In this document: in pieces, positions 8,290 through 31,201 of the stretch | Numbering within the stretch: the stretch's first letter is position 1 | How the letters are laid out: every line of letters starts with the position of its first letter | DNA from: Gammaproteobacteria bacterium | GTDB taxonomy: Bacteria; Pseudomonadota; Gammaproteobacteria; Steroidobacterales; PWYM01 | NCBI GenBank assembly: GCA_003567475.1 | Contig: PWZL01000059.1 | Location: 1-33,669, forward strand | DNA length: 33,669 nt | Direction of reading: 5' to 3' | Notes under the pieces: generated by a model | Seen by the model: only the letters and a program-made list of their open reading frames with translations | What the model was told of the DNA's origin: nothing | Databases searched by the model: none | Position numbers and translations under genes: made by a program

Positions 8290-9912
8290 TCAGCGACAGT
8301 GCCAGCCGCCGCCGGACGCCAGCGTACACGAGTCCGGTGCACCCTCCTGGTCCCACAACTGCGTAACCCCCGTCAGCACCATGGCCTGGGCGAATGCAGG
8401 CTGCGCCCGCATGTCGGCGAGCTCCGGCCACCAGAGATGCCCAAGCCAACCCGCCGGACCGCGATCGGCAGCGGCAAGCACCGACTCGGCACTGCGCTCC
8501 GGAAGTTCCAGCAGCGCGTACTCCATCAGGTGCTCGGCTGTGCGCATGCGCGCGGCCTGCGGCAGGGCAGCGATCGCCGCCAGTGCCGCATCGCGCTGGC
8601 CTCGATCGACCACCCCTTCGGCCACGGTCCGCGCGGCCGCCGCGTCGCCATAGTAGGTTTCAAGCCACTGCGAGAAATGTTCCACGAAGGCGGCGTCATC
8701 GCCGGCCCGCCGGGCCAGCAGCGCCTCGAACAGCGGGACGCCGTGGCCGGTGATTTCCTCTGCGATGCTCGCGAAGTTGCGCATGCCTTCATTGTCACCA
8801 GCAATCCCGTGAGCCTGCGCCAGCAGGCGATAGGCCTGGGCATCCAGAGGATCCGCCACCGCGGCGAGGCGGGCCTGCAGGCGTGCGCGTATCGCGTAGC
8901 CGGCATAGAGTTGTAACTGGGCATGAATACGCGCACCGCCGGGACGGGCACTCGGTCCCTGGGCAAGGCGCTCCGCGTGCTGGACCGCGGCCTGCCATCG
9001 GCGGTGCTCGAAGGCATCGTTCATCAGCAGCGTGTGTCCTCGCCAGTCGTCCGGGTTGACGGTCACCAGACGCTCGCCGAGCAGACGAGTGTCCTGCAGA
9101 CGTTCCGCGTTGCGCCGGGCGAGTTCTTCAGCAGTGGCTGGGGGCTCACCCGGTCGCGCAACGCTCGCCGTCATCGACCTCAGCGCAAGCAGGGTGTAGA
9201 GCGCCGGGCTGTAGTCCGGGGCCTGCTCCACCACCTCCCTGATCAGCCCAAGCGCCTCGAGTTGCTGCGCGTTGCTCCCGCGCGCCAGCTGGGTTGCTCG
9301 AAGATACTTGCCGTACACCAGGGGCGCGATGGGGGTGACGTCAACCACGGCGGCAACCCCGGCACCGGCCAGCACGCGGTCGCTTACGCGTGCGACGACG
9401 TTACCCACCCGCTCGGACGTAGGCTCGTCTTCCAGCGACCAGACGCGTGCCGCGCCCCTGAGCTCACGCATCTGCATGCGCAGCTGGGGTGGGCCGTTGG
9501 GCTCACGCGTAAGTTCGCCATCCACCGCGAAGTCGACGCCCAGCAGGTGAGCGAGGTAGGCGCCGTCGAGGTTCGACTGCGCGGCGGCGCGGGTGGAGTT
9601 ACAGGAGACCAGTCGCAGCCGACGTGTCTCCACCAGCCGTTCGGTGATGGCATCGCACAGCATGTTTCCCAGCGAGACGAGTTCGGCATCGGCGTCATCG
9701 ACCGCCGGGGCGAACACCGCTACGCCAGGCAGTTCGTAGACTCTGGGGCGATCCAGCATGTCGTCCAGCGTTGCCGCCAGCGCCAGAGATCCGCCCGGCG
9801 CGTATGCCGTTTCGCCTGCCGGCCGGAGCAACATGCGTCCAGCCACCGCCAGTGCCAGGCCCAGCAGGATCACCAGCAGCACCACGACACGGCGATCGAG
9901 CAGCTTGGTCAT
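8290..9912 (-). CDS. Membrane-anchored repeat protein resembling the sensory half of CadC-like regulators
   Basis: I place the start at ATG 9910-9912, because GGAG lies 8 bases upstream; this gives 540 residues. A GTG three codons earlier is less likely. A single transmembrane segment (about residues 9-25, VVVLLVILLGLALAVAG) follows a short basic N-terminus, so the bulk is periplasmic. Residues about 55-130 resemble the domain that starts with a 'VAVFAP...LGNMLCDAITERLVETRRLRLVS' pattern. That domain follows the transmembrane helix in CadC/ToxR-type regulators and some adenylate cyclases. The remainder (about 190-520) is helical and TPR-like (YSPALYTLLALRS, DPLDAQAYRLLAQAHG). No winged-helix DNA-binding domain precedes the membrane helix, so it cannot be a regulator of the usual type. 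The end contains two Cys (DSC, HCR) that might pair. Function is unknown. Confidence 0.75.
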   Translation of the reverse strand: MTKLLDRRVVVLLVILLGLALAVAGRMLLRPAGETAYAPGGSLALAATLDDMLDRPRVYELPGVAVFAPAVDDADAELVSLGNMLCDAITERLVETRRLRLVSCNSTRAAAQSNLDGAYLAHLLGVDFAVDGELTREPNGPPQLRMQMRELRGAARVWSLEDEPTSERVGNVVARVSDRVLAGAGVAAVVDVTPIAPLVYGKYLRATQLARGSNAQQLEALGLIREVVEQAPDYSPALYTLLALRSMTASVARPGEPPATAEELARRNAERLQDTRLLGERLVTVNPDDWRGHTLLMNDAFEHRRWQAAVQHAERLAQGPSARPGGARIHAQLQLYAGYAIRARLQARLAAVADPLDAQAYRLLAQAHGIAGDNEGMRNFASIAEEITGHGVPLFEALLARRAGDDAAFVEHFSQWLETYYGDAAAARTVAEGVVDRGQRDAALAAIAALPQAARMRTAEHLMEYALLELPERSAESVLAAADRGPAGWLGHLWWPELADMRAQPAFAQAMVLTGVTQLWDQEGAPDSCTLASGGGWHCR

Positions 9913-10397: not shown

Positions 10398-11012
10398 ATG
10401 GTCACGGTGAGAACCTTGTTTTCCCTTGCGGGGGTTTGGACGATACCCATGCTGCTGACGACCGCTTATGCCGACGTCACCAGTCCAGAGCGATCCGGGG
10501 AGAAGCAGTTCAGCGACCGCGTTCAGGTCGAGTATGCTGATCGAGAATGGACGCTGGTGCAGACCGGGCAGACCGTGCGAAGACAGTACTTCCTGCGGAT
10601 CTATGCCATGGCTCACTATCTTGAAGGCGATCTGCACGCCACGCCGGGCTCGACTTACCGCGCGATCATCGATGCTCCCGGAATCAAACAGATCACGATG
10701 CGTTTCCTGCGCAACCTGAGTGCCGACCAGATCCAGCAATCGTTGGCTTCCGGGCTCAGAGCAAGCGCCGGAGCTGAGCAGTACGCGCGTATCCTGCCGG
10801 ACGTGGAACGATTCATGCGGGCCATCAACGACGACGCTCGGCGGGACACTGAGTTTGTTCTGCGATGGTATCCGGACGGGACGCTGGAATCGTTCTACCG
10901 CGGAAGCCGCATCAGCTCGATCAGGAACGCCGAGTTTGCGTCAGTGATGTGGTCGATCTGGTTCGGTGAGAATTCCGTGGTCGATCGAGCGGCTCTGGTC
11001 GAGCGCCTGTAG
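10398..11012 (+). CDS. Exported chalcone-isomerase-like protein
   Basis: The protein is 204 residues from ATG 10398, which has a GATGGGAT-type weak Shine-Dalgarno and starts a good signal peptide (MVTVRTLFSLAGVW...AYA-DV). An ATG at 10380 would add six residues. The mature part has the layout of bacterial chalcone isomerase-like proteins: RRQYFLRIYAMAHYLEG (strand-helix), a central IIDAPGIKQITMRFLRNLSADQI, a helical stretch, and a C-terminal strand-turn with WYPDGTLESFYRG followed by FASVMWSIWFGENSVVDRAAL. Members of this fold can bind fatty acids, but bacterial members mostly have no known reaction. It is followed 71 bases later by an RhlA-like gene on the same strand, which makes a lipid-related role attractive, though unproven. 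Confidence 0.78.
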   Translation: MVTVRTLFSLAGVWTIPMLLTTAYADVTSPERSGEKQFSDRVQVEYADREWTLVQTGQTVRRQYFLRIYAMAHYLEGDLHATPGSTYRAIIDAPGIKQITMRFLRNLSADQIQQSLASGLRASAGAEQYARILPDVERFMRAINDDARRDTEFVLRWYPDGTLESFYRGSRISSIRNAEFASVMWSIWFGENSVVDRAALVERL

Positions 11013-11018
11013 CTGGCA

Positions 11019-11028
11019 TTGGCGCCAA
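11019..11028. promoter_or_regulatory. 10-bp palindrome between chalcone-isomerase-like and RhlA-like genes
   Basis: TTGGCGCCAA is a perfect palindrome 6 bases after the upstream stop and 55 bases before the RhlA-like ATG. It could be an operator for the downstream gene, or a chance palindrome in GC-rich DNA. No -35/-10 pair is clear beside it. Confidence 0.25.
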
Positions 11029-11083
11029 CCGCAGGCCGTGCGGGTCAATTCGTTGGTTCACTGTGGAGCTACGCGGCACACCT

Positions 11084-11893
11084 ATGAAAATCATCAAGGG
11101 CGAGCTGAATTTGGGGCGTTTTCTGGTGCCCTACCGCGTGTACGGAGACGCTCGACGAACGATTGTCTGTATCAGTGGCGCCAAACAGACCATGGCGGCA
11201 TGGCGGTCGTTCATCAGCCATTTTGTTTCGGACTATTCGGTCGTGGTTTTTGATCTTCCGGGACAGGGCCGCTCCAAGATTCTGTCCGGCTCGCCTGGCG
11301 TGAGTTTTGAGGAACAGGTCGATGTCCTGCACAAGGTGATCACCGAAACCAACCGGAACGGGCCTGTGTGTCTGGCCGCGGCGTCTTGGGGGACGATCAT
11401 CTCGGCTGCATTGGCGGCTCGGCACCCGGAGTTGGTTGAGAAGATGATTCTTGGCAGTTTCGGTTCCAAACCAAGCAAGGCTGTGATCGAGGTCATCAAG
11501 GCCGGGCAGAGGCTTTTCGACGTGGGAGAAGTGACCGGCATAGCACCGTTGATGATCGAACACTTCGGCCAGTACATTCCGGAATCGCACAAACGGCAGA
11601 TGATCGAGCAGTTTCGCCACATGAGCCACGAGCAATTCGTGAGCTTTTACGAGCACTGCGCGTTCATCGAACGGTCGTCTGACATCTCGGAGTTCGTCGA
11701 TCTCGCAAACATAAAAGCCGCCACGCTCATCATTACCGGCGAGTATGACTCGATCCTGGACGTGACTGATGTCGAACAGGCCTCGCAGCGTATCCCGGAT
11801 TGTGAGTTTCAGAGGGTCCCGGGAGCCGGCCACTTCCTGCACTGGGAGAAAGCCGATATTCTCAATACGTACAGTGATTTCCTGGCGCGATAG
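11084..11893 (+). CDS. RhlA-like alpha/beta hydrolase (HAA synthase-type acyltransferase candidate)
   Basis: This 269-residue cytosolic protein has no signal peptide. The start is ATG 11084, because the sequence then aligns with RhlA N-termini; a GTG at 11063 adds seven residues. It shows RhlA-type features: VVVFDLPGQGRS (about 53-64), nucleophile elbow AASWGT with Ser101, LIITGEYDSI with Asp222 and RVPGAGHFLHWE with His250. The P. aeruginosa RhlA triad is, from memory, Ser102-Asp223-His251, a constant one-residue offset over the whole length. RhlA joins two 3-hydroxyacyl groups to make 3-(3-hydroxyalkanoyloxy)alkanoate, the lipid half of rhamnolipids. Whether this protein does the same is inference, since simple hydrolases share the fold. 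No rhamnosyltransferase (rhlB) is nearby. Hand-counted GC at 11101-11220 is 70/120, below the flanks, hinting at transfer. It is followed 12 bases later by a broken cupin gene. Confidence 0.75.
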   Translation: MKIIKGELNLGRFLVPYRVYGDARRTIVCISGAKQTMAAWRSFISHFVSDYSVVVFDLPGQGRSKILSGSPGVSFEEQVDVLHKVITETNRNGPVCLAAASWGTIISAALAARHPELVEKMILGSFGSKPSKAVIEVIKAGQRLFDVGEVTGIAPLMIEHFGQYIPESHKRQMIEQFRHMSHEQFVSFYEHCAFIERSSDISEFVDLANIKAATLIITGEYDSILDVTDVEQASQRIPDCEFQRVPGAGHFLHWEKADILNTYSDFLAR

Positions 11894-11905
11894 CAGGATT
11901 GGAAT

Positions 11906-12392
11906 ATGGCGAGGTTGAAGCTTGCGCCTGTTGACGCGCGGCCGGCTATCGATCAGACGACCTTTCACGCGGATTACTTTGCGCCGCTGAAACCGCTGGT
12001 CTTGGAGGAGGTCGCCAGTCACTGGACAGCCTTTTCCAAGTGGACACCGGAGTTCTTCAGGGACGTCCATGGCGACAAGCCGGTCAAGGTGTATGACGAG
12101 AGTTTCGTGGCAGCAGGGCTGCCATCACATGTCAGGCGTTCGAACCGTGCCGCTACGGGAGTATGCCGAACTGGTCTTGACGACCGAGCAGGATCTTCGG
12201 ATGTTTCTGTACAACATTCGCTTCGAGATTCACGAGTTGCTCGAAGATAACGTTCGCCTGTCGAGCCAACGCGACGCTTTGCTCGATCACGCCTCGATAA
12301 TCGCTGAAGCCGGCCGCCGCGGGGCGTCGGAAGCCTCGGACATCGCCGACATTGACTTGAGCTTTGAAGCAGTCAAGATTGCGTTAAAGTAA
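11906..12392 (+). pseudogene. Broken JmjC/cupin-like (Cupin_8) gene
   Basis: A frame from ATG 11906, 12 bases after the RhlA-like stop and preceded by AGGATT, encodes a typical cupin-like N-terminus: FHADYFAPLKPLVLEEVASHW, then WTPEFFRDVHG and VKVYDESFVAAG. The family's next block, HMSGVRTVPLREYAELV...DLRMFLYNI, continues only in the +1 frame from about 12123, so a single-base indel lies at about 12117-12130. After LYNI the sequence no longer matches the family. The metal-binding HxD and the distal His expected about 60-140 residues later are absent; a charged helical tail ends at 12392. The gene is both frameshifted and truncated, or fused to unrelated sequence. Intact relatives are Fe(II)/2-oxoglutarate-dependent oxygenase-like. 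A sequencing error could explain the frameshift but not the missing second half. Confidence 0.7.
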
Positions 12393-12462: not shown

Positions 12463-13020
12463 CTAACGGACGAGGTCTGCTGTGCGCCGTGTGGTCGAGC
12501 CGAACCACAGTGGTTTGTCGACGACGAACTTCATCGAACGTTTCACCAGACCTTTGCCTGGGAAGAAACCGAGGTCGAGCCATAACCGGATCACCGCCAT
12601 AGCCTCGAGGTCAATGGTCTGCTCGATGGGCAACAGAAAACCTTCGTAATCACCCGCGGGTGTTACGAACCGCTCTTTGGTGATAGGCACAATTCGGTGC
12701 TGATACTCGCCCGTGTGCACAAGCTCCTGCGTTTCTCTATTGATCACCGTAGCTCTACCGGACGCGCTCCATGTACGATCGGGCACGATTCTGTTCGGCA
12801 GCACCACCACCGGGGGATCGTATAGCACCGTCTGACCTTCCGTCAGCACGTCCAGAGCGGTAAGCAGCACGCTGCCATCCGGGAGCTCGCGAAGATGGAG
12901 GATATTGTAATCGCCAAATCGCAGTATCCAGCCGCCTTCGCCCTCACCGGAACTCAGCGCCAGTACGACCTGCCGTCCTTCTCCGTCTCCGTCCACGATC
13001 TCGAACGTGCCATAGCGCAT
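12463..13020 (-). CDS. Hypothetical protein, possibly N-terminally truncated
   Basis: The frame encodes 185 residues rich in beta strands (RYGTFEIVDGDGEGRQVVL, GSVLLTALDVL, YQHRIVPITKERFVTPAGDYEG) ending in KPLWFGSTTRRTADLVR. It has no signal peptide, and an in-frame TAG lies 30 bases before the ATG with no clear Shine-Dalgarno. The start RYGTFEI is reminiscent of the middle of secreted lipoproteins that begin 'YYPLxxGNRWxY', so the signal peptide may have been lost. The region PAGDYEGFLLP followed by GLGxx...VKRS-like text fits such lipoproteins, but I cannot name a family. It lies 77 bases downstream of the cysteine-peptidase gene on the same strand and could be its operon partner. Confidence 0.5.
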   Translation of the reverse strand: MRYGTFEIVDGDGEGRQVVLALSSGEGEGGWILRFGDYNILHLRELPDGSVLLTALDVLTEGQTVLYDPPVVVLPNRIVPDRTWSASGRATVINRETQELVHTGEYQHRIVPITKERFVTPAGDYEGFLLPIEQTIDLEAMAVIRLWLDLGFFPGKGLVKRSMKFVVDKPLWFGSTTRRTADLVR

Positions 13021-13097: not shown

Positions 13098-15272
13098 TCA
13101 GCGCCGATAGATGATCGATCCCTTCTCGACATTGGCGATGCCGAGACCGATTTCGAAATGGCCGTCGATACCGTAATCCATCATGCTTTCGAGATAAAGC
13201 GCCGACCATTCCTCCGGAAAGCCGTTATCGATTACGTAGAAGCTGCGATTGCGACTGTTGTAGCCGCGAACCACGACCCAGTGCAGCGCGTTGATCGAGT
13301 CGTGCGGCGACCAGATGTCGGCGGCCAGCTGACTGCCCCACCCGACCAGGACGATCACAGGCTTGCCCTGATCAAGCAGGGTGCGCAGCCGCTCCAGGGC
13401 ATCGCGGTTTTTCCTGGCGTCACCCAGCGGCAGTGCCTGATGTACGAAGCCTGAGGCCATCTCGTTCATGCGATCGCGCAGGGTACCGGGCGGGGTGCCC
13501 CACCAGTTCTCCGTAAACAGGTTTCCGGAGCCGTGCACGCGTCGCTTGAACTGCTCGTAGGTGGTGTTGACGCCATAGAATCGCAGCACGCGGGAACCCG
13601 ACGAGGGTCCGCAGGAATTATCGCCACTGAGGCGGTTGGTGTAGTCACCCGTGGGCACGTCGATCAGCACATTCGGCTGAAATACCGAGAGGTCCGCGCG
13701 TGCCGGATCGATGGGCGCCAGCCGCACGTGCAGCGGCTCGTAGAACACGCGCACGCCGGTCCGAGAGCCGGCCTCCGGACCATCGGTGTCACCCACGGTA
13801 TGAAACACCCGGACGTGACTGCGTGCATTGCGCCGGGCAACATGAACCGGGTCGGCGAAGCGCACGGAGACCTTCTCTTGGCGCGGCGCCTCGCCGACCC
13901 CTTCGACAAGAAAATCATGCTCATGGTCGCGGTCGGTGTAGGTGGCCGTCGCCGTCCGGTCGAGCGCGGATTCGCGTACACGCTGATGTTGGTCGTTTTC
14001 CCACCAGCCATACTCGACATCGACCGAATCGATGCGCCAGCCCTCCGGCGCGGTCCAAAGTGTTTCGCCACTGCGGGTGCCCTCCGCACGGGTGTCACCA
14101 CCGCGGGTTTCCACCGCCGTTCCGCCGAATGTGGCGAGCAACCGGCGCCTGTCCGGCGACAGTGAGAGCATCGAGTGGACCGTCATGCGCGGGCCGTTGC
14201 CGCCGAATTCACGGTCGCCGGCGGTGTGCGGCAGGACGAAGAAGTTTGAATGCAGCGCGCTGAGCACAATGGAATGACTGCCCGGTGGCCCGCTGTGCGC
14301 CGGCGATTCGACGATCGGCACAACCACCCGGATGGGGTTGTACTGTATCTGCACACTGGTGCCACGCACCGTCTTGCGACCGCTGCGCACGGGCCCAACA
14401 TCGGGTCCGTTGGTATCACCCATCACCATGAAGGCCCTGACCGGCCCGCTCACCTCTGGAATCCGCCGGGGATCGACCTTGCCGTGACCCGGCACGATCA
14501 CGTCGATTTCCCAGTCATTGTCGACATAGTTGCCGGTAGCCGAAACGGGCGTGACAATGCGTTCGATGGGCGCACCATCGGGTTCGCACCACACTCTCAA
14601 CCGCCGATCGAGCCGACCGCTTGTCCAGTCCGGGCGGGTTTCACGGGCATGCATTTTTACATCGGCGTACAGACAGGCGCCGTCAATGGTCAGATCCAGC
14701 CGCAGCTCGACCTCGGGGCCATTGCCAGCAAAATCCCCATCACCGCGTCCGGTCTGCACCGCATAAAGCCTGTCGGACGGCGGGGGCTGAATCTCCACCG
14801 TTCTGGAAGTGATCCGGGGCAATGTCACAGCCGCCTCACGAACCACGGCACTCCGCGGCTGGGGCTCGACGCGAGTCTGACTTGCAGCGGGCGGTATAGT
14901 GACCGGCGGCTGCCGGGTCAGTGCTTCACGGGATACGGCGATCGTCGCCTGACGCGCAGGTTGCGAGGCGGCATTGGCATTGCACTGCCGCAACTGCTCG
15001 GCATTCAACGTGCGGCCGGGATACCCGTAGCTGACGATCCGACCGACCTTTGCTGCCAGTTGGGCGCAGGCAGCGACACCGGGCTGTGCCCAGGGGCCGG
15101 AAATTCGGCACTCCCGGTCGGCACATTGCCAGGTCAGGCTGCCGGCCGGCACCGCACCGGTTTCCAGTGCCGGGGCTGCAGTCCTCGCCGTGTAATTGTA
15201 GGTCTGGGCCGTGACCGACCCAGGCGCCAGGATCAGAACGATCCCGACCAGAACGATTCGATGCGGTTTCAT
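13098..15272 (-). CDS. Secreted papain-like (C39-like) cysteine protein with duplicated beta modules
   Basis: The protein is 724 residues with a clean signal peptide (MKPHRIVLVGIVLILAPGSVTA-QT). Domains in order: a four-cysteine N-terminal segment (about residues 43-100: WQCADREC, AACAQLA, LRQCNA); a proline-rich linker (about 100-165); and two copies of a beta-rich module (about 168-325 and 345-530). Each copy opens with GDxxFxGNGP and closes with a (M/V)GDTxGP motif. A C-terminal papain-fold domain follows (about 540-720): nucleophile in GDNSCGPSSG (Cys554), ALHWVVVRGY (His664) and FYVIDNGF (Asp682). The fold resembles C39-like peptidases or bacterial transglutaminase-type hydrolases. Because it is exported and carries binding-type modules, it may act on extracellular peptides or the cell wall, but the substrate is unknown. 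The three predicted catalytic residues are present, so it may be active. Confidence 0.78.
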   Translation of the reverse strand: MKPHRIVLVGIVLILAPGSVTAQTYNYTARTAAPALETGAVPAGSLTWQCADRECRISGPWAQPGVAACAQLAAKVGRIVSYGYPGRTLNAEQLRQCNANAASQPARQATIAVSREALTRQPPVTIPPAASQTRVEPQPRSAVVREAAVTLPRITSRTVEIQPPPSDRLYAVQTGRGDGDFAGNGPEVELRLDLTIDGACLYADVKMHARETRPDWTSGRLDRRLRVWCEPDGAPIERIVTPVSATGNYVDNDWEIDVIVPGHGKVDPRRIPEVSGPVRAFMVMGDTNGPDVGPVRSGRKTVRGTSVQIQYNPIRVVVPIVESPAHSGPPGSHSIVLSALHSNFFVLPHTAGDREFGGNGPRMTVHSMLSLSPDRRRLLATFGGTAVETRGGDTRAEGTRSGETLWTAPEGWRIDSVDVEYGWWENDQHQRVRESALDRTATATYTDRDHEHDFLVEGVGEAPRQEKVSVRFADPVHVARRNARSHVRVFHTVGDTDGPEAGSRTGVRVFYEPLHVRLAPIDPARADLSVFQPNVLIDVPTGDYTNRLSGDNSCGPSSGSRVLRFYGVNTTYEQFKRRVHGSGNLFTENWWGTPPGTLRDRMNEMASGFVHQALPLGDARKNRDALERLRTLLDQGKPVIVLVGWGSQLAADIWSPHDSINALHWVVVRGYNSRNRSFYVIDNGFPEEWSALYLESMMDYGIDGHFEIGLGIANVEKGSIIYRR

Positions 15273-22290: not shown

Positions 22291-24129
22291 TCAGCCCAGC
22301 CTTGCGGCCAGACCGGAACGCCGTTCGACCCGCCGGGCGATTGCCCCGCGCAGCACCTCGGGCGCGGCGTGCACCCGCAGGCGCTCGCGGGCGCGGGTCG
22401 CGCCGGTGTAGACCAGCTCGCGGCTGAGCACCGGGCTGTCCGTCTCCGGTAACAGCAGGTGTACCGTGTCGAACTCCGAGCCCTGGCTCTTGTGCACGCT
22501 CATCGCGAATACCGTCTCGTGCTCGGGGATCGACGTGGGCAACAGCGCACGCACCGACTGCTCCCCGGGAAACCACACCCGAAAGCGTCCGCCTGAGTCG
22601 GCCAGGCATACGCCCGTGTCGCCGTTGAACAGCCCAGCCCGATAGTCGTTGCGCAGCACGATCACCGGGCGACCATGAAACCACTGCCGGTCCGGATCGA
22701 GATCATGACGCGCATCGAGCACCTCGCGGATGCGCCGGTTCATCGCCAGCACCCCCGCCGGCCCGATCCGCGTGGCACACAGCAGCCGGATCCGCTCCAG
22801 CAGCATGAGCGCCTCGGCCGGCTCCTCCACCTCGAGCAGCGGCGAGTACGCGATGGCCAGCTGCTCGGCCAGCGCATCGAGATCCGGCACGGGCCCAGGC
22901 GACAGTTCGAGCGTCGACGGATCCGCATCAGCGAGGGCGATGGCGCCCTCGGCGTCACCTGCGTTGACGGCAACGGCAAACCGCCCGATGGGGCTGTCGA
23001 CATCGAAGCGGTGACTCTTCTCCAGCGTCACCACATGATCGGCGATGTTCGCCGCCCCGGCTGCGGCAGGTGGCGGCGCATCCGCACCGAGCAGCGGCCC
23101 GAACGCTTCGTGCTGCCCCGCGGAGAAGCGGTTGCGCCCGGCCAGCGCACAGAGCTCCGCCAGCACGGAGCCCGACTCCACAGCGGCCAGCTGGAAGCGA
23201 TCGCCGAGCAGCACGAGACGGGCCTCGGGCCCGAGCGCATCCAGCAGTTTCGCCATCATCGGCAGATCGACCATCGAGGCCTCATCGACGATCACCGCAT
23301 CGGCGGGCAATGGATGCTCCGTATCATGGCGTGGCCGCGTGCCCTGCAGACCAAGCCCGAGCAGTCGATGCAGGGTCATCGCCGAGGCCGGCAGCACCCC
23401 GGCCAGTCGTGTCGCAGCCGGCAAGCCCTGCAACGCGTCCAGGCCATCACGGATCGACTGCATCATGCGCGCCGCCGCCTTGCCGGTCGGCGCCGCCAGT
23501 GCGATCACCGGCAACGGACGTCCGGCGGCAGCGGCCGCCTCGGTCAACAGATAGACCAGGCGCAGCACGGTATAGGTTTTTCCGGTGCCCGGTCCGCCGG
23601 AAATCACCGCCAGCCGATGCCGCAGCGCCACCGCCGCGGCCACCGCCTGCCAGTGGGTCTCGCCCGGCGCCAGGCGATGGCCGTCGAACAGGCCCCCATC
23701 AGGCCCGAGCACAGTCGGGTCTACGGGCTGCGGGCGCGCGGAGAGCAACCACTGCAGGCGCGTCGCCAGGCGGGTCTCGTAGCGCCAGTACCGGTGCAGG
23801 TACAGCCGCTGGCCGTCGAGGATCAGCGGACACGCGGCGCCCGGTGCACCGGTCAGCGCACTCGTCGCCAACGCGGCAACGAAGGCCTCAGCGCTGCACC
23901 ATGGCCCTTCACCTGGAATCGCCGGCGACAGGTCATCGAGCTCAAGGCAGGCGTGCCCGCCTGCGGTCGCCTGGTTGACCAGCGCAAAGGCGAGCGCCAC
24001 CTCCGCCACGGCACCATGGCGCAACGCCCAGTCCGCCAGCGCCAGATCGATCGCCTGTAGCTGACCGCGGTCGAAGGCCGCCTCGAGTCGGGCCCGGAAA
24101 CTGTCATGACCGGTAACCAGCAGCGTCAT
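22291..24129 (-). CDS. recD: RecBCD exonuclease V alpha subunit (5'-3' helicase)
   Basis: RecD is 612 residues, close to the E. coli length. It is the 5'-to-3' SF1B helicase of RecBCD and controls nuclease activity before Chi. Visible motifs: Walker A GGPGTGKT (residues 178-185) after LAVISG; IALAAPTGKAAARM (motif Ia); VIVDEASMVDLPMM (Walker B, DEAS); RLVLLGDRFQLAAVESGSVL (motif III); and the C-terminal VHKSQGSEFDTVHLLLP (motif V) and LVYTGATRARERL (motif VI). The ATG overlaps the recB stop as ATGA (24126-24129), so the two are translationally coupled. It is the last gene of the DUF5916-recC-recB-recD run. Confidence 0.96.
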   Translation of the reverse strand: MTLLVTGHDSFRARLEAAFDRGQLQAIDLALADWALRHGAVAEVALAFALVNQATAGGHACLELDDLSPAIPGEGPWCSAEAFVAALATSALTGAPGAACPLILDGQRLYLHRYWRYETRLATRLQWLLSARPQPVDPTVLGPDGGLFDGHRLAPGETHWQAVAAAVALRHRLAVISGGPGTGKTYTVLRLVYLLTEAAAAAGRPLPVIALAAPTGKAAARMMQSIRDGLDALQGLPAATRLAGVLPASAMTLHRLLGLGLQGTRPRHDTEHPLPADAVIVDEASMVDLPMMAKLLDALGPEARLVLLGDRFQLAAVESGSVLAELCALAGRNRFSAGQHEAFGPLLGADAPPPAAAGAANIADHVVTLEKSHRFDVDSPIGRFAVAVNAGDAEGAIALADADPSTLELSPGPVPDLDALAEQLAIAYSPLLEVEEPAEALMLLERIRLLCATRIGPAGVLAMNRRIREVLDARHDLDPDRQWFHGRPVIVLRNDYRAGLFNGDTGVCLADSGGRFRVWFPGEQSVRALLPTSIPEHETVFAMSVHKSQGSEFDTVHLLLPETDSPVLSRELVYTGATRARERLRVHAAPEVLRGAIARRVERRSGLAARLG

Positions 24130-27100
24130 GCGACCGCCTCGCCGTCGAACAGTCGGTCCAGCGACTCGATGAGCGCCCCGTCGGGCCGGTCGACGAACAC
24201 CCCGGTGGCGGCATCCCGCCCGTTCATCCCCCGCAGGAAGAGGTACTGCGCCCCGCCCAGGTGCGCCTCGGGGCGGTAACCGGCCAGGCGCAGCCGCAGG
24301 TGACGATGCAGGGCGACGAGGTAGATCAGATACTGCAGATCGTAGTGACCGCGACGCACGGCGTCGGCGAGCCGCGCAGGCGTATAGTCGCCCGCGGCCG
24401 GACCCAGCCGGTTGGTCTTGTAATCGATCACCCAGTAGCGGCCCTCATGCTCGACCACCAGGTCGATGAAGCCCTGCATCAGCCCCTGGAGGGTTCCGGC
24501 CGCACGGGCACCGACCGGCAGCCCACCGTAGCCGTGGCGCTCCAGCAGCGCGCCGACAGCGGCAGGCGACTGTCCACCCAGGCGCATCACGAACCCCATC
24601 TCGGCCAGCCGACAGGCCGGCGGCACCGCCGCCAAGGGGCCGAGTTCCGGCAACGACGTGTGCAGGCACCGCGACACCAGTCCGGCCACCGCTTCGAGCT
24701 GGCGCTCGCCGGCGACACCGCCCGCCAGGACCAAACCCTGGCGCTGCAGCTGTTCGGCCACCTGCCGGCGCTCGGCGGCGGACGGCGGCTGCCCGGGCGC
24801 AGGCCAGTCGTGGAATACGGCGTGTTCAAGCAGGTCATGGACGGCGGATCCGAACGCAGTCCCGCCAAGCCCCGCGAGCCCTGGCGGCTCCAGCGGGCGA
24901 TCCTCGGGCGGCCCGACGGCGTCGGTAATGTCGGGGCTCTGCGGGCCGTCCGTAGCGGCCTGGAGCGGACCCGACTCGTCGTCACGACCGCCGGGCTCGG
25001 GCGCCGCAGTGCTCTCGCCGCGCAGCAGCGCCGAGTAGGAGAGCATCCGCCAGGGCGCGCGCACCGCCGGAAAATCATCGCGGGCTGGACCCAGCGCAGC
25101 GCCCGCGGCTGGCGGGCGGCTCGGCATCCCGTGGGTCGCGGGCAGCTCGCACACCTGGATGCTGCCGCCACCGGCGCGCATGAGGTCAGCCAGCCGGGCA
25201 GCCACTCGCTCGGCCGTGAACCAGTGCGGCGCACTGCGCCCCCGCTCCCAGGTGTCGCCCGCTGCGCCATCGGCGGCGTGCAGCACCCAGGCCAGGGCCG
25301 AGTTCTGGACACCGTTGGCGCGACACCAGGGCAGGACGATGGCCTGCTCGGCGCGGGTCAGGGCGACGTACAGCAGCCGCACCGCCTCAGCCCGGCGCTC
25401 GAGGATGGCCTGCGTCCGGGCCGCCGCCTCGACCTCAGGCCCGGGTGCCAGCCACTCTGCGCCGTCTGCCGCGTGCCAGCGCACCGGCGGGCTGCCGGGA
25501 TCCCCGGCACCGACGCCAAGGAAGGGGGCGTAGGGCAGGAGCACCACCGGAAACTGCAGGCCCTTGACGGCATGGACGGTGGCGATCCGCACCAGTGCCT
25601 CGTCGCTCTCCAGGCGCAGCTGCGCCTCGTCTCCAGGCGCTCCGGCGCCCGCGCGCGCCCGTTGGCCCGCCAGCCAGCGTTGCAGGCCTGCCGGGCCGAA
25701 GCAGCCGGCCTCGGCCTCCTGCAGACACTCGGCCAGATGCAACCAGTTGGTCAGCCGCCGCTCACCATCCACCAGCCCCAGCAGGCGCGGCGCCGCCGCC
25801 TGCAGCAACGGCTCGAGCATGGCCAGGACGCCGTCGCTCAGCCAGCGCTCATGCGCCTGCTGCAGGCGCTCCACCCAGCGCTGCCAGGCTTCATCGTCGC
25901 CTTCCAGCGCCACCAGGTCACCGAGCCGCAGGCCGAACAGCTCGCCCGCGAGCGCGGTGCGGATCCGCTGCGCATCGGCCGGGGTAGCGGCGGCGGCCAG
26001 CACCGCCTCCATCTGGTCCGCCTGCGCACTCGCGAACAGGCTGGCCTGTTGCAGGCAGACCGCCGGTATCCCGGCCGCCGCCAGGCGCTGCTGCAGCTCG
26101 GCGGCCTCGGCATTGCGATTCACCAGCAGACACAGATCGGCGGGCTCCAGTGCTCGCGAAGCCTCGCCCTCCACCACCCGGGCGTCCCGGGCGGGATCGA
26201 GCAGCCGGACCACCTCCGCGACCGCAGCCGCGGTGAGCCGCTCATGCACCTCGCCGACTGTCCGCAGGCCATCGGCCTCTGCGGCCGTCTCCGGCCAGCT
26301 CCAGAATGCCAGCGCGGGTAATGGCTCGCCGTCAAGCTCGATACGTCGATCCCCTGCCTGACGACCAGGCAGCACCGGCACGAAGTCGATCCCGGAGACG
26401 AGGAAGGCGCCGGGCGTCGCCGTAAACAGGGTCTCGATGGCCTGCAGGACCTCGGCGGTCGAGCGGTAATTGGTGGTCAACCCGCGCTGCCCGGTGGCCT
26501 CCCGCGCCGCGGCCAGATAGGCATACACATCGCCGCCGCGAAAGCCGTAGATCGCCTGCTTCGGGTCGCCGATCATGACCATGCCGCCGCCCTCCCGACC
26601 GGCATAGATCTGCCGGAGAATCGCGTACTGCAGGGGGTCGGTGTCCTGGAACTCGTCGACCAGCGCGAACGGCCAACGCTGGGCCAGCGCCGCGGACAGC
26701 CCGGGGCCACGCTCAGGGTCCTGCAGTGCCGCATACAGCGACTCCACCAGATCGGCGAAAGTGTAGACGCGCCGCTCGCGCTTGCGCCGCGCCAGCAGGG
26801 CGCCCACCTCCTCGCGGGCGCGATGCCATTGCTGCAGTGGCGCGCAGGCCGTTGCGGCCAGCACCGCGTCGACGGCACGGGCGAGCGCCGGCGGCATACC
26901 GGCCTTCTTCGCCGGCCCCTTGAGCTGGCCATCGAGCCGTGACGTCCCCAGCAGTTCGAGTGCCTCCGGGCTGCTCGCGGCGGCATGGCGGCGGACATGC
27001 TCATCGATCGCCATGAACACGGCGCCGGCCCCGCCGGCCTCGGCAACGAGCCTGGCCAGCCGTCGCCCACCATGGAACCCGTTGCCCCCCTCGACCGCGA

Positions 27101-27797
27101 GGAACCAGTCCCGCAGGGCCTCGCGATGGGCGGTCCACTCGGCAACTGCCGTCTCGCAGGCCGCGCGGAGGGCCGCCGGCTCGGGACCGGCGAGCCGCAC
27201 CCAGGGCCGCGTCAGCAGCTCGCCCAGCCCCTGCGTCAGATGAGCTGGGGTCGGCCAGACCCCCTGGATGCGTTCGGCCAACGCCGGGTCACCGCCGAAT
27301 ATCTGCCGGCGCCACCAGTCAGCGACGGCCTCATCGAGTAATGCGCGCTCGTCGACCTGCTCGCCTCGATCGAACGCGACGCCGCCCTCGAAAGCGTGCT
27401 CTTGCAGTGCCCGACCAGCATAGCCGTGGAGCGTGAGAATGGTCGCCTCGTCCATGCGCACCGCAGCCTCGCGAAGGCGCGCGGCCAGGCGTTCGCGCGG
27501 CTCGTCGCTGCGCTCGATCACCGCCAGGGCGAAGGCGGACTCTGCACTGTCCGGGGCCGCTGCGGGATCAGCCGCGAGCCGTGCAGCGTCGGCCACCCGC
27601 CTGCGGATGCGCTCGCGCAGCTCCTGGGTGGCCGCGCGCGTGAAGGTCATGACCAGCACGTCGCGGACATCCAGGCGCTGCTCGATCAGCAGGCGCAGAT
27701 ACAGTCCGGCCAGGGTGAACGTCTTGCCGGTCCCGGCACTGGCCTCGATCAGACTGAGCCCGGCCAGCGGCAGCCAGGCGGCCTCGTCCTCACTCAT
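24126..27797 (-). CDS. recB: RecBCD exonuclease V beta subunit (3'-5' helicase and nuclease)
   Basis: RecB is 1223 residues. It supplies the 3'-to-5' helicase and the only nuclease of RecBCD, and loads RecA after Chi. Motifs: Walker A SAGTGKTFTL (residues about 20-29); VMTFTRAATQELRERIRRR (motif Ia); ALVDEFQDTDPLQY (motif II); MVMIGDPKQAIYGFRGGD (motif III); GLTTNYRSTAEVL; IATVHAVKGLQFPVVLLP; and LLYVALTRAEQA (motif VI). The C-terminal nuclease has GFIDLV with Asp1112, and VIDYKTN with Asp1125 and Lys1127. The 13-residue Asp-Asp spacing and DxK match the E. coli active site. The start overlaps the recC stop by 8 bases and the stop overlaps recD by 4. All catalytic residues appear intact. Confidence 0.97.
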   Translation of the reverse strand: MSEDEAAWLPLAGLSLIEASAGTGKTFTLAGLYLRLLIEQRLDVRDVLVMTFTRAATQELRERIRRRVADAARLAADPAAAPDSAESAFALAVIERSDEPRERLAARLREAAVRMDEATILTLHGYAGRALQEHAFEGGVAFDRGEQVDERALLDEAVADWWRRQIFGGDPALAERIQGVWPTPAHLTQGLGELLTRPWVRLAGPEPAALRAACETAVAEWTAHREALRDWFLAVEGGNGFHGGRRLARLVAEAGGAGAVFMAIDEHVRRHAAASSPEALELLGTSRLDGQLKGPAKKAGMPPALARAVDAVLAATACAPLQQWHRAREEVGALLARRKRERRVYTFADLVESLYAALQDPERGPGLSAALAQRWPFALVDEFQDTDPLQYAILRQIYAGREGGGMVMIGDPKQAIYGFRGGDVYAYLAAAREATGQRGLTTNYRSTAEVLQAIETLFTATPGAFLVSGIDFVPVLPGRQAGDRRIELDGEPLPALAFWSWPETAAEADGLRTVGEVHERLTAAAVAEVVRLLDPARDARVVEGEASRALEPADLCLLVNRNAEAAELQQRLAAAGIPAVCLQQASLFASAQADQMEAVLAAAATPADAQRIRTALAGELFGLRLGDLVALEGDDEAWQRWVERLQQAHERWLSDGVLAMLEPLLQAAAPRLLGLVDGERRLTNWLHLAECLQEAEAGCFGPAGLQRWLAGQRARAGAGAPGDEAQLRLESDEALVRIATVHAVKGLQFPVVLLPYAPFLGVGAGDPGSPPVRWHAADGAEWLAPGPEVEAAARTQAILERRAEAVRLLYVALTRAEQAIVLPWCRANGVQNSALAWVLHAADGAAGDTWERGRSAPHWFTAERVAARLADLMRAGGGSIQVCELPATHGMPSRPPAAGAALGPARDDFPAVRAPWRMLSYSALLRGESTAAPEPGGRDDESGPLQAATDGPQSPDITDAVGPPEDRPLEPPGLAGLGGTAFGSAVHDLLEHAVFHDWPAPGQPPSAAERRQVAEQLQRQGLVLAGGVAGERQLEAVAGLVSRCLHTSLPELGPLAAVPPACRLAEMGFVMRLGGQSPAAVGALLERHGYGGLPVGARAAGTLQGLMQGFIDLVVEHEGRYWVIDYKTNRLGPAAGDYTPARLADAVRRGHYDLQYLIYLVALHRHLRLRLAGYRPEAHLGGAQYLFLRGMNGRDAATGVFVDRPDGALIESLDRLFDGEAVA

Positions 27798-30700
27798 GCA
27801 CGACTCCCGAAAGCGCTTCAGCCGGTGACAGCGGCTGCTGCCGAAGCAGCACGGGCAGACAGACGGCGGCGCTCATGCCGCAGAATGCGCTGTCCCCCGG
27901 TGTCGCGCCGAGCGGCATCCCGGGCCGCAGCAGCTGCACGAAATAGGGCGCGGCCAAGGCGCCGGGACCCCGAAACCTGCCGTTGTCGGGGCCCGCGCTC
28001 AGGGCGTGATTGAGGGCGGCCAGGGCGGCGGCTCCGGCTTCGCCGTGGGCCTCGACACACTGCTCGGCGGCCGCGGGATCCACAGCGGGTGCGGCCTCGA
28101 GCAGCGCGCGGGCGTACTGCTCGGAGAGATCCGCATGAAAGGGCAGCGGAACCTGCTGACCTTCGACGTACCACTCGACCAGACGGGCAAGCCACCGCCG
28201 GGCCTCCTCAGGGGTCACCCGCAGAACGCAGGTCTCGGGCGTACCCGACTTCGCGAGCCCTGCGGCAAACAGCGCCGCCGGGTGACCTGCTGCGACCAGC
28301 GCGAGCAGATCGATCCAGCCGGCGAGCAGGTGCTTCATCTTCAGACGGCCGACATGCAGGCGATGCAGTCCACCAGGGCGCCAGTCGTTGATCCGCCCGG
28401 TCAGCCGGCGCCCCTGCGGCAGCGCGAGATCGATCACCACGGGCTCGGGCCGGGGCGCCTGCCAATGCCGCTGCAGGGCATACAGCGCCGAGACGGCCTG
28501 CACGGCCTGGCGCCAGGCGGCATGATCGAGCGGGGGTGGCGGCAGCAACGCCCGCCGCTGCCAGGCGCGCGGCGGCGTCTCGGGCGGCAAGTGTTCGCCC
28601 GCGCCGGCCCGCGCCAGCAGCACACTGCGCAGCTTCCAGGCGTCCAGCGCCTCGAGCTTGAGCGCCTCGTTATCGTCACCCCGCCCCTCGTCCCCAGCGA
28701 GCGCGAGCCCCAGGCGCTCGCGCAGAAAGGCCGCTGGCGGATCACGGTAAAACCGCTGCAAGGCCTCGAGGGTCACGACAGGTTCGGCCTGCGCCGGGGC
28801 CCGCGTGCCATCGTCCAGGCCAGGCGGGAGCACACGCGCGCGCCCGCTGGCCGCGGCCCCGTCGCGCCATCCGCCCGAGAAGGTGAACACGCGGGCGTGC
28901 GCGGCGCGGCCGGCAAAGTAGCGCGGACTGAACGGCTGCATGGGCTGCCGGGTGATCAGCCGCGACGCGAACGCCGCCGCCGACAGCCCGACGCAGTGAT
29001 GCTCCCGCAGGAACTCCAGCCATTCGGTGACCGTGGTCGAGGGCTCGAGCGTCTCGCCACTGCGAACGTTGCAGCCGATATAGCTGACATAGAACACGTC
29101 GCGCGCCGCGAGCATCAGCTGCAGAAACGCCAGGCGGTCCTCATCGCGATTGCGCCGGTCGCCGAGGCGATGTTCGCCGAGCACCAGGTTGATACCGGTC
29201 GCGGGGTCCTCGCGCGGGAACTCCCCGTCGTTCATCCCCAACAGGCAGACGACCCGAAATGGCACGCCCGCCAGGCTGCGCAGGTCGGCGAAAGTCACGC
29301 CACCGGAGAGATAGGGTTGGCGCGCACCGGCACGGCCGAGCTGCGCCAGCAGCACCTCGCGGACCACAGGCCAGCCGAGTGGCGCGTCACCGAGCGCGGC
29401 GTCGGCCTCATCCAGCACCTCCAGTGCTGCATGGACTTCAGCCAGCGCCTCGCGCTCGTCGCGATCGTCCTCATCGATGGTGAAGAACGTCTGTAGCGCG
29501 GCGTTGAGCCGGATGCGCCACTGTGCCGCCGGACGCGGCTCGGCCAGCAGCTGTTGCCAGCGCGCGAGCGCCTGCACCAGGCGCATCAGTGACCCAGCCA
29601 GCAGGGTGACCCCGCCCTCCAGGCCCGTCCAGGGCGAGACGTCATCGACCAGGGCATCGGGGTCGTCGAGCATGGCCCCGAGCAGCAGGCGGTCAAGCCC
29701 GAAGGCCCAGGTGTACTCGTCATAGTGCCCGGCACCCAGGCGCTCGCGGGTATCGGCATCCAGCCCCCAGCGCACGCCAGCCGCCTGCAGCCAGTGGCTG
29801 ATGGTCAGCAGACCGCTCTCGTCCAGACTGAAGCGCCGCATCACCGGCGCCACCGCGGCGAAGGCCAGCACCTCGGAGGCGGACCAGCGCGACTGCGGCA
29901 GCTCACAGAGCTCGCGGACCGCCTGCACCAGCGGGTGGGCGGCGCGGCGTGACTGGTCGGCCAGCGACCAGGGCATGCGCCGCCGGCCGGTGGCGCCACC
30001 AAAGACGCTGCGGATCGCCGGGCCGTAGCGACTCGGATCGGGCATCGCCACAAGAATGTCGCGTGGCATGAGCGTGGGATCGGCCGCCAGCAGGTCGAGC
30101 AGCTGGTCGTGCAGCACCTGCACTTCGCGCAGCACACCGTGGCAGGCGTGCACCTGGATGGAGACGTCATCTTCCGCAGGGGGGCAGGCTTCGGCCACCG
30201 CCGAGAGCGTGATGATGCCGCGCTGCAGGCGCTGCAGCAGCCGCGCGCCCTGCGGCGGCTCGTAGGCCATGGCGGGGCCGAGCTCGGGTTCCTGGATGCC
30301 GGCGAGCTCGTCAGCGTAAAGCAGGTGCAGGCAGTCGCGCAGCGGTCGGCCCAGGGCGGCCAGCAGGGGATGACCCTCGGCCACCCGGCGCTCGGCGGCG
30401 GGCAGGCGCTCGGTGCGCGCCTCGCGCAGGCCGAGGCGCGTGGCGCGGATGTCACCCCAGTAGACCTCCGAGGGATTCGGCAGCAGCAGATGAATCTCAC
30501 GTGCACGTCCCAGCGCATAGAGCAGGCGGAGATAGTCGGGCGGCAGGTCGGCGGTGGCGAACACGTACAGCGGTCCACTCCCGGCCGCGCCGGTCGGGGG
30601 CTCGGTGGTGAGCCGGGTGACCATCTCGCGCAGGACGAGTGCGCGGTGTCGTGGCCCCAGACGCGCGCGCAACGCCCGCCAGACCTGCCCCTGCCAGGCC

Positions 30701-31176
30701 GCCGCGGGCTGGCCACCACCATCACCGCCACGATCCCACTGAGCGATGAGATCGGCGCGAAACACCTGGTACTGATCGAACACGTCAGCCAGCCGCTCGG
30801 CCAACTGCAGCATGACCAGTTCCCGCGGCTCGCCGGCGAGGTAACGGGCCACCGCGGGCACCTCGGCGGCGACCGTCGGCAGCAGCGCGAACAGTTCCCA
30901 GCGCATGCGCGCCCTGAACCAGCCTTCAGCCACGGCGCTGAGCCCCAGCGCCGGCCGCAGGGTCTGCCAGGTGAAGGTGGCGAACAGCGGAAAATCGATG
31001 TTCGCGGCGATGCCGTCACTGCCGGCCAGCTCCGCCTGCAGCCAGCGGCCGACCCCGCGGTTGGGCACGATCACCTGCTCAGGCACCAGCGGCGAGCCGG
31101 CGCGCGAACGCTGCATCAGCGCACCGAGCAGCTCTGCCAGACGTGCGAGGCTATGGTGATGGTAGAGGTGCAGCAC
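27790..31176 (-). CDS. recC: RecBCD exonuclease V gamma subunit (Chi recognition)
   Basis: I start at GTG 31174-31176, which makes VLHLYHHHSLARLAELLGALM the N-terminus, matching RecC proteins that begin MLxxYHSNRLxxL. AGGAGG (31192-31197) lies 15 bases upstream, somewhat far. The frame extends 37 codons further up, but those codons overlap the previous gene. The protein is 1128 residues, close to the E. coli length. RecC is an inactivated helicase-like subunit that splits DNA and reads Chi. Family blocks include QVIVPNRGVGRWLQ, ANIDFPLFATFTWQ, DILVAMPDPSRYGPAIRSVFG, RVVCLLGMNDGEFPRED, GEHRLGDRRNRDEDRLAFLQ and FYVSYIGCNVRSGETLEPS. It overlaps recB by 8 bases. No ptrA (M16 peptidase) gene sits between recC and recB, unlike E. 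coli. Confidence 0.95.
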   Translation of the reverse strand: MLHLYHHHSLARLAELLGALMQRSRAGSPLVPEQVIVPNRGVGRWLQAELAGSDGIAANIDFPLFATFTWQTLRPALGLSAVAEGWFRARMRWELFALLPTVAAEVPAVARYLAGEPRELVMLQLAERLADVFDQYQVFRADLIAQWDRGGDGGGQPAAAWQGQVWRALRARLGPRHRALVLREMVTRLTTEPPTGAAGSGPLYVFATADLPPDYLRLLYALGRAREIHLLLPNPSEVYWGDIRATRLGLREARTERLPAAERRVAEGHPLLAALGRPLRDCLHLLYADELAGIQEPELGPAMAYEPPQGARLLQRLQRGIITLSAVAEACPPAEDDVSIQVHACHGVLREVQVLHDQLLDLLAADPTLMPRDILVAMPDPSRYGPAIRSVFGGATGRRRMPWSLADQSRRAAHPLVQAVRELCELPQSRWSASEVLAFAAVAPVMRRFSLDESGLLTISHWLQAAGVRWGLDADTRERLGAGHYDEYTWAFGLDRLLLGAMLDDPDALVDDVSPWTGLEGGVTLLAGSLMRLVQALARWQQLLAEPRPAAQWRIRLNAALQTFFTIDEDDRDEREALAEVHAALEVLDEADAALGDAPLGWPVVREVLLAQLGRAGARQPYLSGGVTFADLRSLAGVPFRVVCLLGMNDGEFPREDPATGINLVLGEHRLGDRRNRDEDRLAFLQLMLAARDVFYVSYIGCNVRSGETLEPSTTVTEWLEFLREHHCVGLSAAAFASRLITRQPMQPFSPRYFAGRAAHARVFTFSGGWRDGAAASGRARVLPPGLDDGTRAPAQAEPVVTLEALQRFYRDPPAAFLRERLGLALAGDEGRGDDNEALKLEALDAWKLRSVLLARAGAGEHLPPETPPRAWQRRALLPPPPLDHAAWRQAVQAVSALYALQRHWQAPRPEPVVIDLALPQGRRLTGRINDWRPGGLHRLHVGRLKMKHLLAGWIDLLALVAAGHPAALFAAGLAKSGTPETCVLRVTPEEARRWLARLVEWYVEGQQVPLPFHADLSEQYARALLEAAPAVDPAAAEQCVEAHGEAGAAALAALNHALSAGPDNGRFRGPGALAAPYFVQLLRPGMPLGATPGDSAFCGMSAAVCLPVLLRQQPLSPAEALSGVVHE

Positions 31177-31201
31177 TGCGCTTTTCGTCAGCCTCCTGCG
31201 C

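Follow-up and report, generated by a model that had tools for sequence, protein, structure and literature searches.

What kind of enzyme is the RhlA-like protein encoded in this DNA, and what might it make in the company of a protein with a chalcone-isomerase (CHI) fold and a cupin-type gene? The window, by which we mean the whole stretch of 33,669 nucleotides analyzed here, contains an intact open reading frame at positions 11084 to 11893 (+ strand) for an alpha/beta hydrolase of 269 amino acids (RHL). It is preceded by the open reading frame of the CHI-fold protein (10398 to 11012, + strand, 204 amino acids) and followed by cupin-type sequence. The first-pass annotation had placed both open reading frames at these positions and had read the locus as a possible free route to 3-(3-hydroxyalkanoyloxy)alkanoic acids (HAAs) or as that of a different hydroxyacyl-joining enzyme. 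Its statement that no RhlB or RhlC is encoded nearby was borne out: none of the window genes scanned was recognized as a glycosyltransferase, and the whole genome contains no RhlB-like protein at E<=1e-5, making rhamnolipid synthesis unlikely. A scan for sigma-70 promoters gave no match. Elsewhere, the window contains an ordinary RecBCD operon (recC-recB-recD, 22291 to 31287, - strand).

Relationship of the hydrolase to RhlA and PhaG

The hydrolase is most similar to RhlA in sequence and in predicted fold. In a phmmer search of the PDB its best match was RhlA, 3-(3-hydroxydecanoyloxy)decanoate synthase (8ik2, E 2e-21), and the next was at 1e-10. The AlphaFold model (pLDDT 86) matched RhlA best in Foldseek (1.3e-21 vs 4e-17), and in a structural alignment RhlA again came first, with a Z of 30.1 over 262 residues and 27.0 for the next structure. 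The generic NCBIfam models PcaD and MenH scored weakly on the protein. Naming by HMM family is uninformative here, because even a true RhlA matches only NCBIfam models that do not stand for RhlA.

Phylogeny places the protein beside RhlA and not within it. We used RhlA and PhaG reference sequences from plasmid records, and in the IQ-TREE tree the window protein and its relatives form a clade of their own (100/98) that is sister to a clade of RhlA plus PhaG (100/100). Together these make a joint clade (100/98) apart from 35 generic hydrolases, so that the tree as a whole falls into three clean groups. A quick tree with more rows gave the same joint clade with a support of 84, and the stems are long on both sides. 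Placement among ordinary esterases, the outcome that would have spoken against an RhlA-like enzyme, was therefore rejected on the tree. We searched 369 genomes of the window organism's class, taken to be Gammaproteobacteria since the cupin of one member (G291) is identical to that of a named gammaproteobacterial metagenome-assembled genome (L041). Whether the query was the window protein at E<=1e-16 or a Halomonas-type RhlA at E<=1e-10, the search returned only the new family and RhlA, and no generic hydrolase, at those thresholds. Members of the family, which comprises at least 29 loci including the window copy, are 51-84% identical to the window copy, whereas identity to RhlA is about 22-30%. 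In a Syntrophomonadaceae metagenome-assembled genome, two adjacent alpha/beta hydrolase genes (at 9093 and 9980 of locus L063) are distantly similar to the family.

The catalytic residues and their surroundings are in line with this position. Ser101, Asp222 and His250 align with Ser102, Asp223 and His251 of RhlA, and the triad is invariant in an alignment of 23 sequences. The first-pass annotation had taken this even register as strong support for an RhlA-like enzyme. The register is real: the spacing (121 residues from Ser to Asp and 28 from Asp to His) is found in 29 of 29 members of the family and in 7 of 7 RhlA and PhaG sequences. However, it also occurs in 4 of the 35 unrelated hydrolases and so is only moderate evidence by itself. 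Twelve positions are common to the family and RhlA/PhaG and rare in generic hydrolases, among them Ala33, Thr36, Ala38, Trp102 (beside the nucleophile), Pro166, Lys170, His191, Phe251 and Leu252. Eleven other positions are fixed in both groups, but differently, and changes from RhlA/PhaG to the family include Asn to Ser31, Ala to Gln35, Gly to Thr104, Asn to Ile158 and Asp to His253. These differences suggest that the substrate or acceptor may differ from those of RhlA and PhaG.

Based on the separate clade and the differently fixed positions, we conclude that the hydrolase is a member of a sister family of RhlA plus PhaG and is not RhlA itself; the proposed likeness to RhlA was right as to nearest relatives. 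With RhlA it shares the full-length fold, the positions and spacing of the triad, the SWG nucleophile elbow, the GHFL motif, Lys170 and His191. It differs in its low identity, its separate clade, the lack of an RhlB/RhlC partner, and its association with a cupin oxygenase and a CHI-fold protein. PhaG has the same superfamily branch and motifs but groups with RhlA, and in contrast to PhaG the new family shows no link to polyhydroxyalkanoate (PHA) genes at the loci annotated, with many carriers lacking a PHA synthase.

The CHI-fold and cupin partners

The protein encoded at 10398 to 11012 is, as first annotated, an exported protein with a CHI fold. It matches Pfam Chalcone_3 (PF16036) with 77.2 bits against a cut-off of 27 (2e-21), begins with a hydrophobic leader that is a putative N-terminal signal peptide, and has an AlphaFold model whose best matches are chalcone isomerases, CHIL, FAP3 and Aim18p. 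Arg61, Tyr69, His73 and Arg105 are conserved. Plant FAPs, which have this fold, bind fatty acid. The yeast CHI-fold proteins Aim18p and Aim46p bind heme and not fatty acids (PMC9996372), and by analogy the ligand of the bacterial protein could be either a fatty acid or heme. It shares with FAPs and Aim18p the fold, by Pfam and by model, and conserved Arg and Tyr residues, but differs in being an exported bacterial protein with no flavonoid pathway context seen.

The gene after the hydrolase, described at first as cupin-like, does adjoin it as cupin-type sequence, but it is not intact. The open reading frames at 11906 to 12250 and 12069 to 12392 belong to a single broken Cupin_8 gene, read in two frames. 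Alignment by BLASTN and at the protein level to the intact cupin of a relative (L035) places a +1 frameshift, an extra base, near position 12118, and beyond about 12247, short of the HxD...H metal site, nothing more aligns. The truncation at 12247 would by itself suffice to remove this site. The remnant of this Cupin_8/JmjC-type 2-oxoglutarate oxygenase gene thus covers 11906 to 12247 (+ strand), and the open tail in the second frame (12248 to 12392, + strand) has no homology to the cupin relatives and no significant Pfam match. The remnant scores 23 bits against a Cupin_8 cut-off of 27.4, compared with 98 bits for the L035 protein, and no copy of the metal-binding core was found elsewhere in the genome of the window organism, which is 98% complete. 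Judged by its sequence, the window cupin is a dead remnant, a pseudogene. The two other genes are intact: against L035, the hydrolase has a dN of 0.10 and a dS of about 2.2 (dN/dS about 0.05, with dS near saturation) and is under strong purifying selection, and the CHI-fold gene has a dN/dS of about 0.2 (dS again near saturation).

In the cupins of the aligned relatives, HxD and YWH are conserved, and the closest solved relatives of the intact cupins are the hydroxylases JMJD5, TYW5 and FIH, with which they share the HxD...H motif and the Cupin_8 profile. They differ from these hydroxylases in an extra conserved C-terminal tail (about 40 amino acids, ending ..WFxWK) and in the close linkage of their genes to a sister gene of RhlA, the window copy being a remnant.

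Conservation, spread and decay of the cassette

We compared the loci of 28 relatives of the window copy, 25 from a scan of GTDB species genomes and 3 from relatives. The neighborhood of CHI-fold gene, hydrolase and cupin suspected from the window is conserved in unrelated contexts. The Cupin_8 gene lies directly downstream of the hydrolase gene in 23 of the 28, the exceptions being four Alteromonas and one Oleiphilus, and the CHI-fold gene lies directly upstream in 12. Because the gaps are short or negative (the cupin follows the hydrolase at -71 to +58 bp, and the hydrolase follows CHI at -4 to 168 bp, with a 4 bp overlap in L035), we infer that the genes are co-transcribed. By our own count there are about 15 distinct genomic contexts across the Gammaproteobacteria. 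A wider operon was considered and rejected: the flanking genes (SulP transporter, RNase E/G, cytochromes, peroxidase, TonB receptor and M14 peptidase) vary by lineage and were judged unrelated. Two genomes from another family (G142 and G265) have cupin, CHI and hydrolase in a different order, as far as the pieces found indicate. In the Thiotrichaceae group a downstream gene, by eye of the uracil-DNA glycosylase type, recalls the synteny of phaG in Pseudomonas; this concerns few loci only and was not used.

Where a partner is not linked, it is generally missing altogether. All five genomes without a linked cupin lack it genome-wide. Fourteen genomes have no intact CHI gene linked to the hydrolase, and 13 of these contain no CHI match at all. 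The fourteenth has only a broken CHI piece with an in-frame stop codon upstream of the hydrolase (about 9712 to 9813 of locus L051); from its sequence, a cassette partner has decayed here for a second time, independently of the window cupin. Pairwise divergences of both partners correlate with those of the hydrolase (rho 0.77 for the cupin and 0.90 for CHI). Given the conserved linkage, the joint genome-wide absence of partners and the tracking divergences, the three genes behave as a functional cassette in which the hydrolase is the constant member. Neither partner is essential to the enzyme, since four of five Alteromonas loci and Oleiphilus do without the cupin and many lineages do without CHI.

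In the window organism the data point to horizontal acquisition of the cassette followed by partial decay. GC content is 0.56-0.60 in the cassette and 0.64-0.73 in most other window genes, and no ortholog was found in genomes of the same genus; we take these two observations as the grounds for acquisition. Regions from two same-genus genomes lack the cassette but each carry one flank gene, 93% alike in one case and 66% in the other, and neither shows a clean empty site. No relative was encoded on viral contigs, which thus gave no sign of the cassette on phages; among plasmids, the best matches were only RhlA proper and distant hydrolases, with no member of the sister family among them. Next to the cassette, an open reading frame of 185 amino acids (12463 to 13020, - strand) has a similarly low GC content, matches nothing in Pfam or NCBIfam, and may have arrived with the cassette. 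The neighboring 724-amino-acid protein (13098 to 15272, - strand) has a CC_3452 region at its N-terminus and a C39-like peptidase domain at its C-terminus, and a 93% identical copy stands in another setting in one same-genus genome. We found no description of the cassette in titles and abstracts of the open-access literature, and it is apparently undescribed.

Candidate reactions and products

RhlA takes (R)-3-hydroxyacyl-ACP and joins two hydroxyacyl chains, and the activity described for PhaG is that of a 3-hydroxyacyl-ACP thioesterase (PMC12628675, PMC7054101). The explanation that we prefer, and to which we would give an even chance, is a horizontally spread lipid-enzyme cassette built around a 3-hydroxyacyl-thioester enzyme of the RhlA-sister family, with an oxygenase and a CHI-fold protein as partners. 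The hydrolase is most likely a 3-hydroxyacyl-thioester acyltransferase or thioesterase whose product would then be modified by the oxygenase. We postulate that it takes (R)-3-hydroxyacyl thioesters, probably 3-hydroxyacyl-ACP, and forms an acyl-Ser101 intermediate, from which the acyl group would pass to a hydroxyl acceptor, which could be a second hydroxyacyl chain, as when HAA is made, or some other alcohol; alternatively, a free 3-hydroxy acid could be released. In most carriers the presumably co-transcribed JmjC/Cupin_8 Fe(II)/2-oxoglutarate oxygenase might hydroxylate the product or acceptor, the natural guess because intact cupins resemble JMJD5-type Fe(II)/2-oxoglutarate hydroxylases, and in part of the carriers the exported CHI-fold protein might bind a pathway ligand in the envelope. 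Only an unmodified product would be possible in the window organism, where the oxygenase is dead. Substrate class, reaction type, cupin target and CHI ligand are all predictions, and several observations stand against the preferred explanation: the low identity to RhlA with long stems on both sides, the positions fixed differently from RhlA/PhaG, the carriers that do without the cupin or CHI, and the fact that the cupin's nearest solved relatives (JmjC) act on proteins or tRNA and not on lipids.

The alternatives differ in how much of this they retain. Unglycosylated HAA, made as by RhlA, is a plausible candidate product: RhlA/PhaG is the closest family, the window genome has no RhlB, and RhlA alone suffices for HAA synthesis in E. 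coli (PMC7054101). RhlA homologues that stand alone, with no RhlB, are known from Enterobacterales and Halomonas and do not require an RhlB/RhlC operon (PMC7054101). As the specific function we nevertheless consider a free-HAA synthase unlikely, for the hydrolase lies outside a RhlA plus PhaG clade that already holds at least two activities, several residues fixed in RhlA are changed, and the known HAA and rhamnolipid operons have nothing that corresponds to the oxygenase and CHI partners. Since the protein belongs to a sister family, free HAA is only one option, and the other suggestion of the first-pass annotation, a different hydroxyacyl-joining enzyme, fits better. A PhaG-like 3-hydroxyacyl-ACP thioesterase or transacylase that feeds PHA synthesis would agree with the sister position of PhaG and with the PHA synthase (PhaC_N) encoded by the window genome and several carriers. 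The absence of PhaC_N matches from all Alteromonas and Methylococcales carriers searched makes this unlikely as a general role, no PHA gene was seen next to any annotated locus, and we regard it as very doubtful.

Two further readings remove the hydrolase from lipid synthesis. An ordinary catabolic or detoxifying esterase with a chance resemblance to RhlA would explain a triad common to all alpha/beta hydrolases and the weak scores of generic models, but the separation from the 35 generic hydrolases, the fold Z by which RhlA stands out and the fixed oxygenase linkage in many contexts leave it quite unlikely. It is also conceivable that the target of the JmjC-type oxygenase is a protein or amino acid, that the hydrolase acts on the hydroxylated product, and that the role of the CHI-fold protein is to carry heme or to sense the redox state. 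The solved structures closest to the cupin and the heme binding of Aim18p and Aim46p (PMC9996372) would accord with such a non-lipid target; the invariant member of the cassette, however, is RhlA-type, and its nearest characterized relatives act on acyl thioesters, and we think this reading very unlikely.

We favor a lipid-enzyme cassette, which probably makes a so far undescribed fatty-acid product. More speculatively, and with only a small chance of being right in full, the mobile cassette could make a new class of secreted or envelope lipid, a 3-hydroxy-fatty-acid ester formed by the RhlA-sister acyltransferase, hydroxylated by the JmjC-type oxygenase and bound outside the cytoplasm by the CHI-fold protein. 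Alteromonas strains that have both CHI and the enzyme make the cassette testable in culturable hosts. RhlA and PhaG, the nearest described branches, feed biosurfactant and bioplastic synthesis. A third branch, conserved and repeatedly accompanied by two partner genes, would provide acyltransferase specificity from a new source, besides offering a concrete test of the roles of bacterial CHI-fold and JmjC/Cupin_8 proteins, which are largely unassigned.
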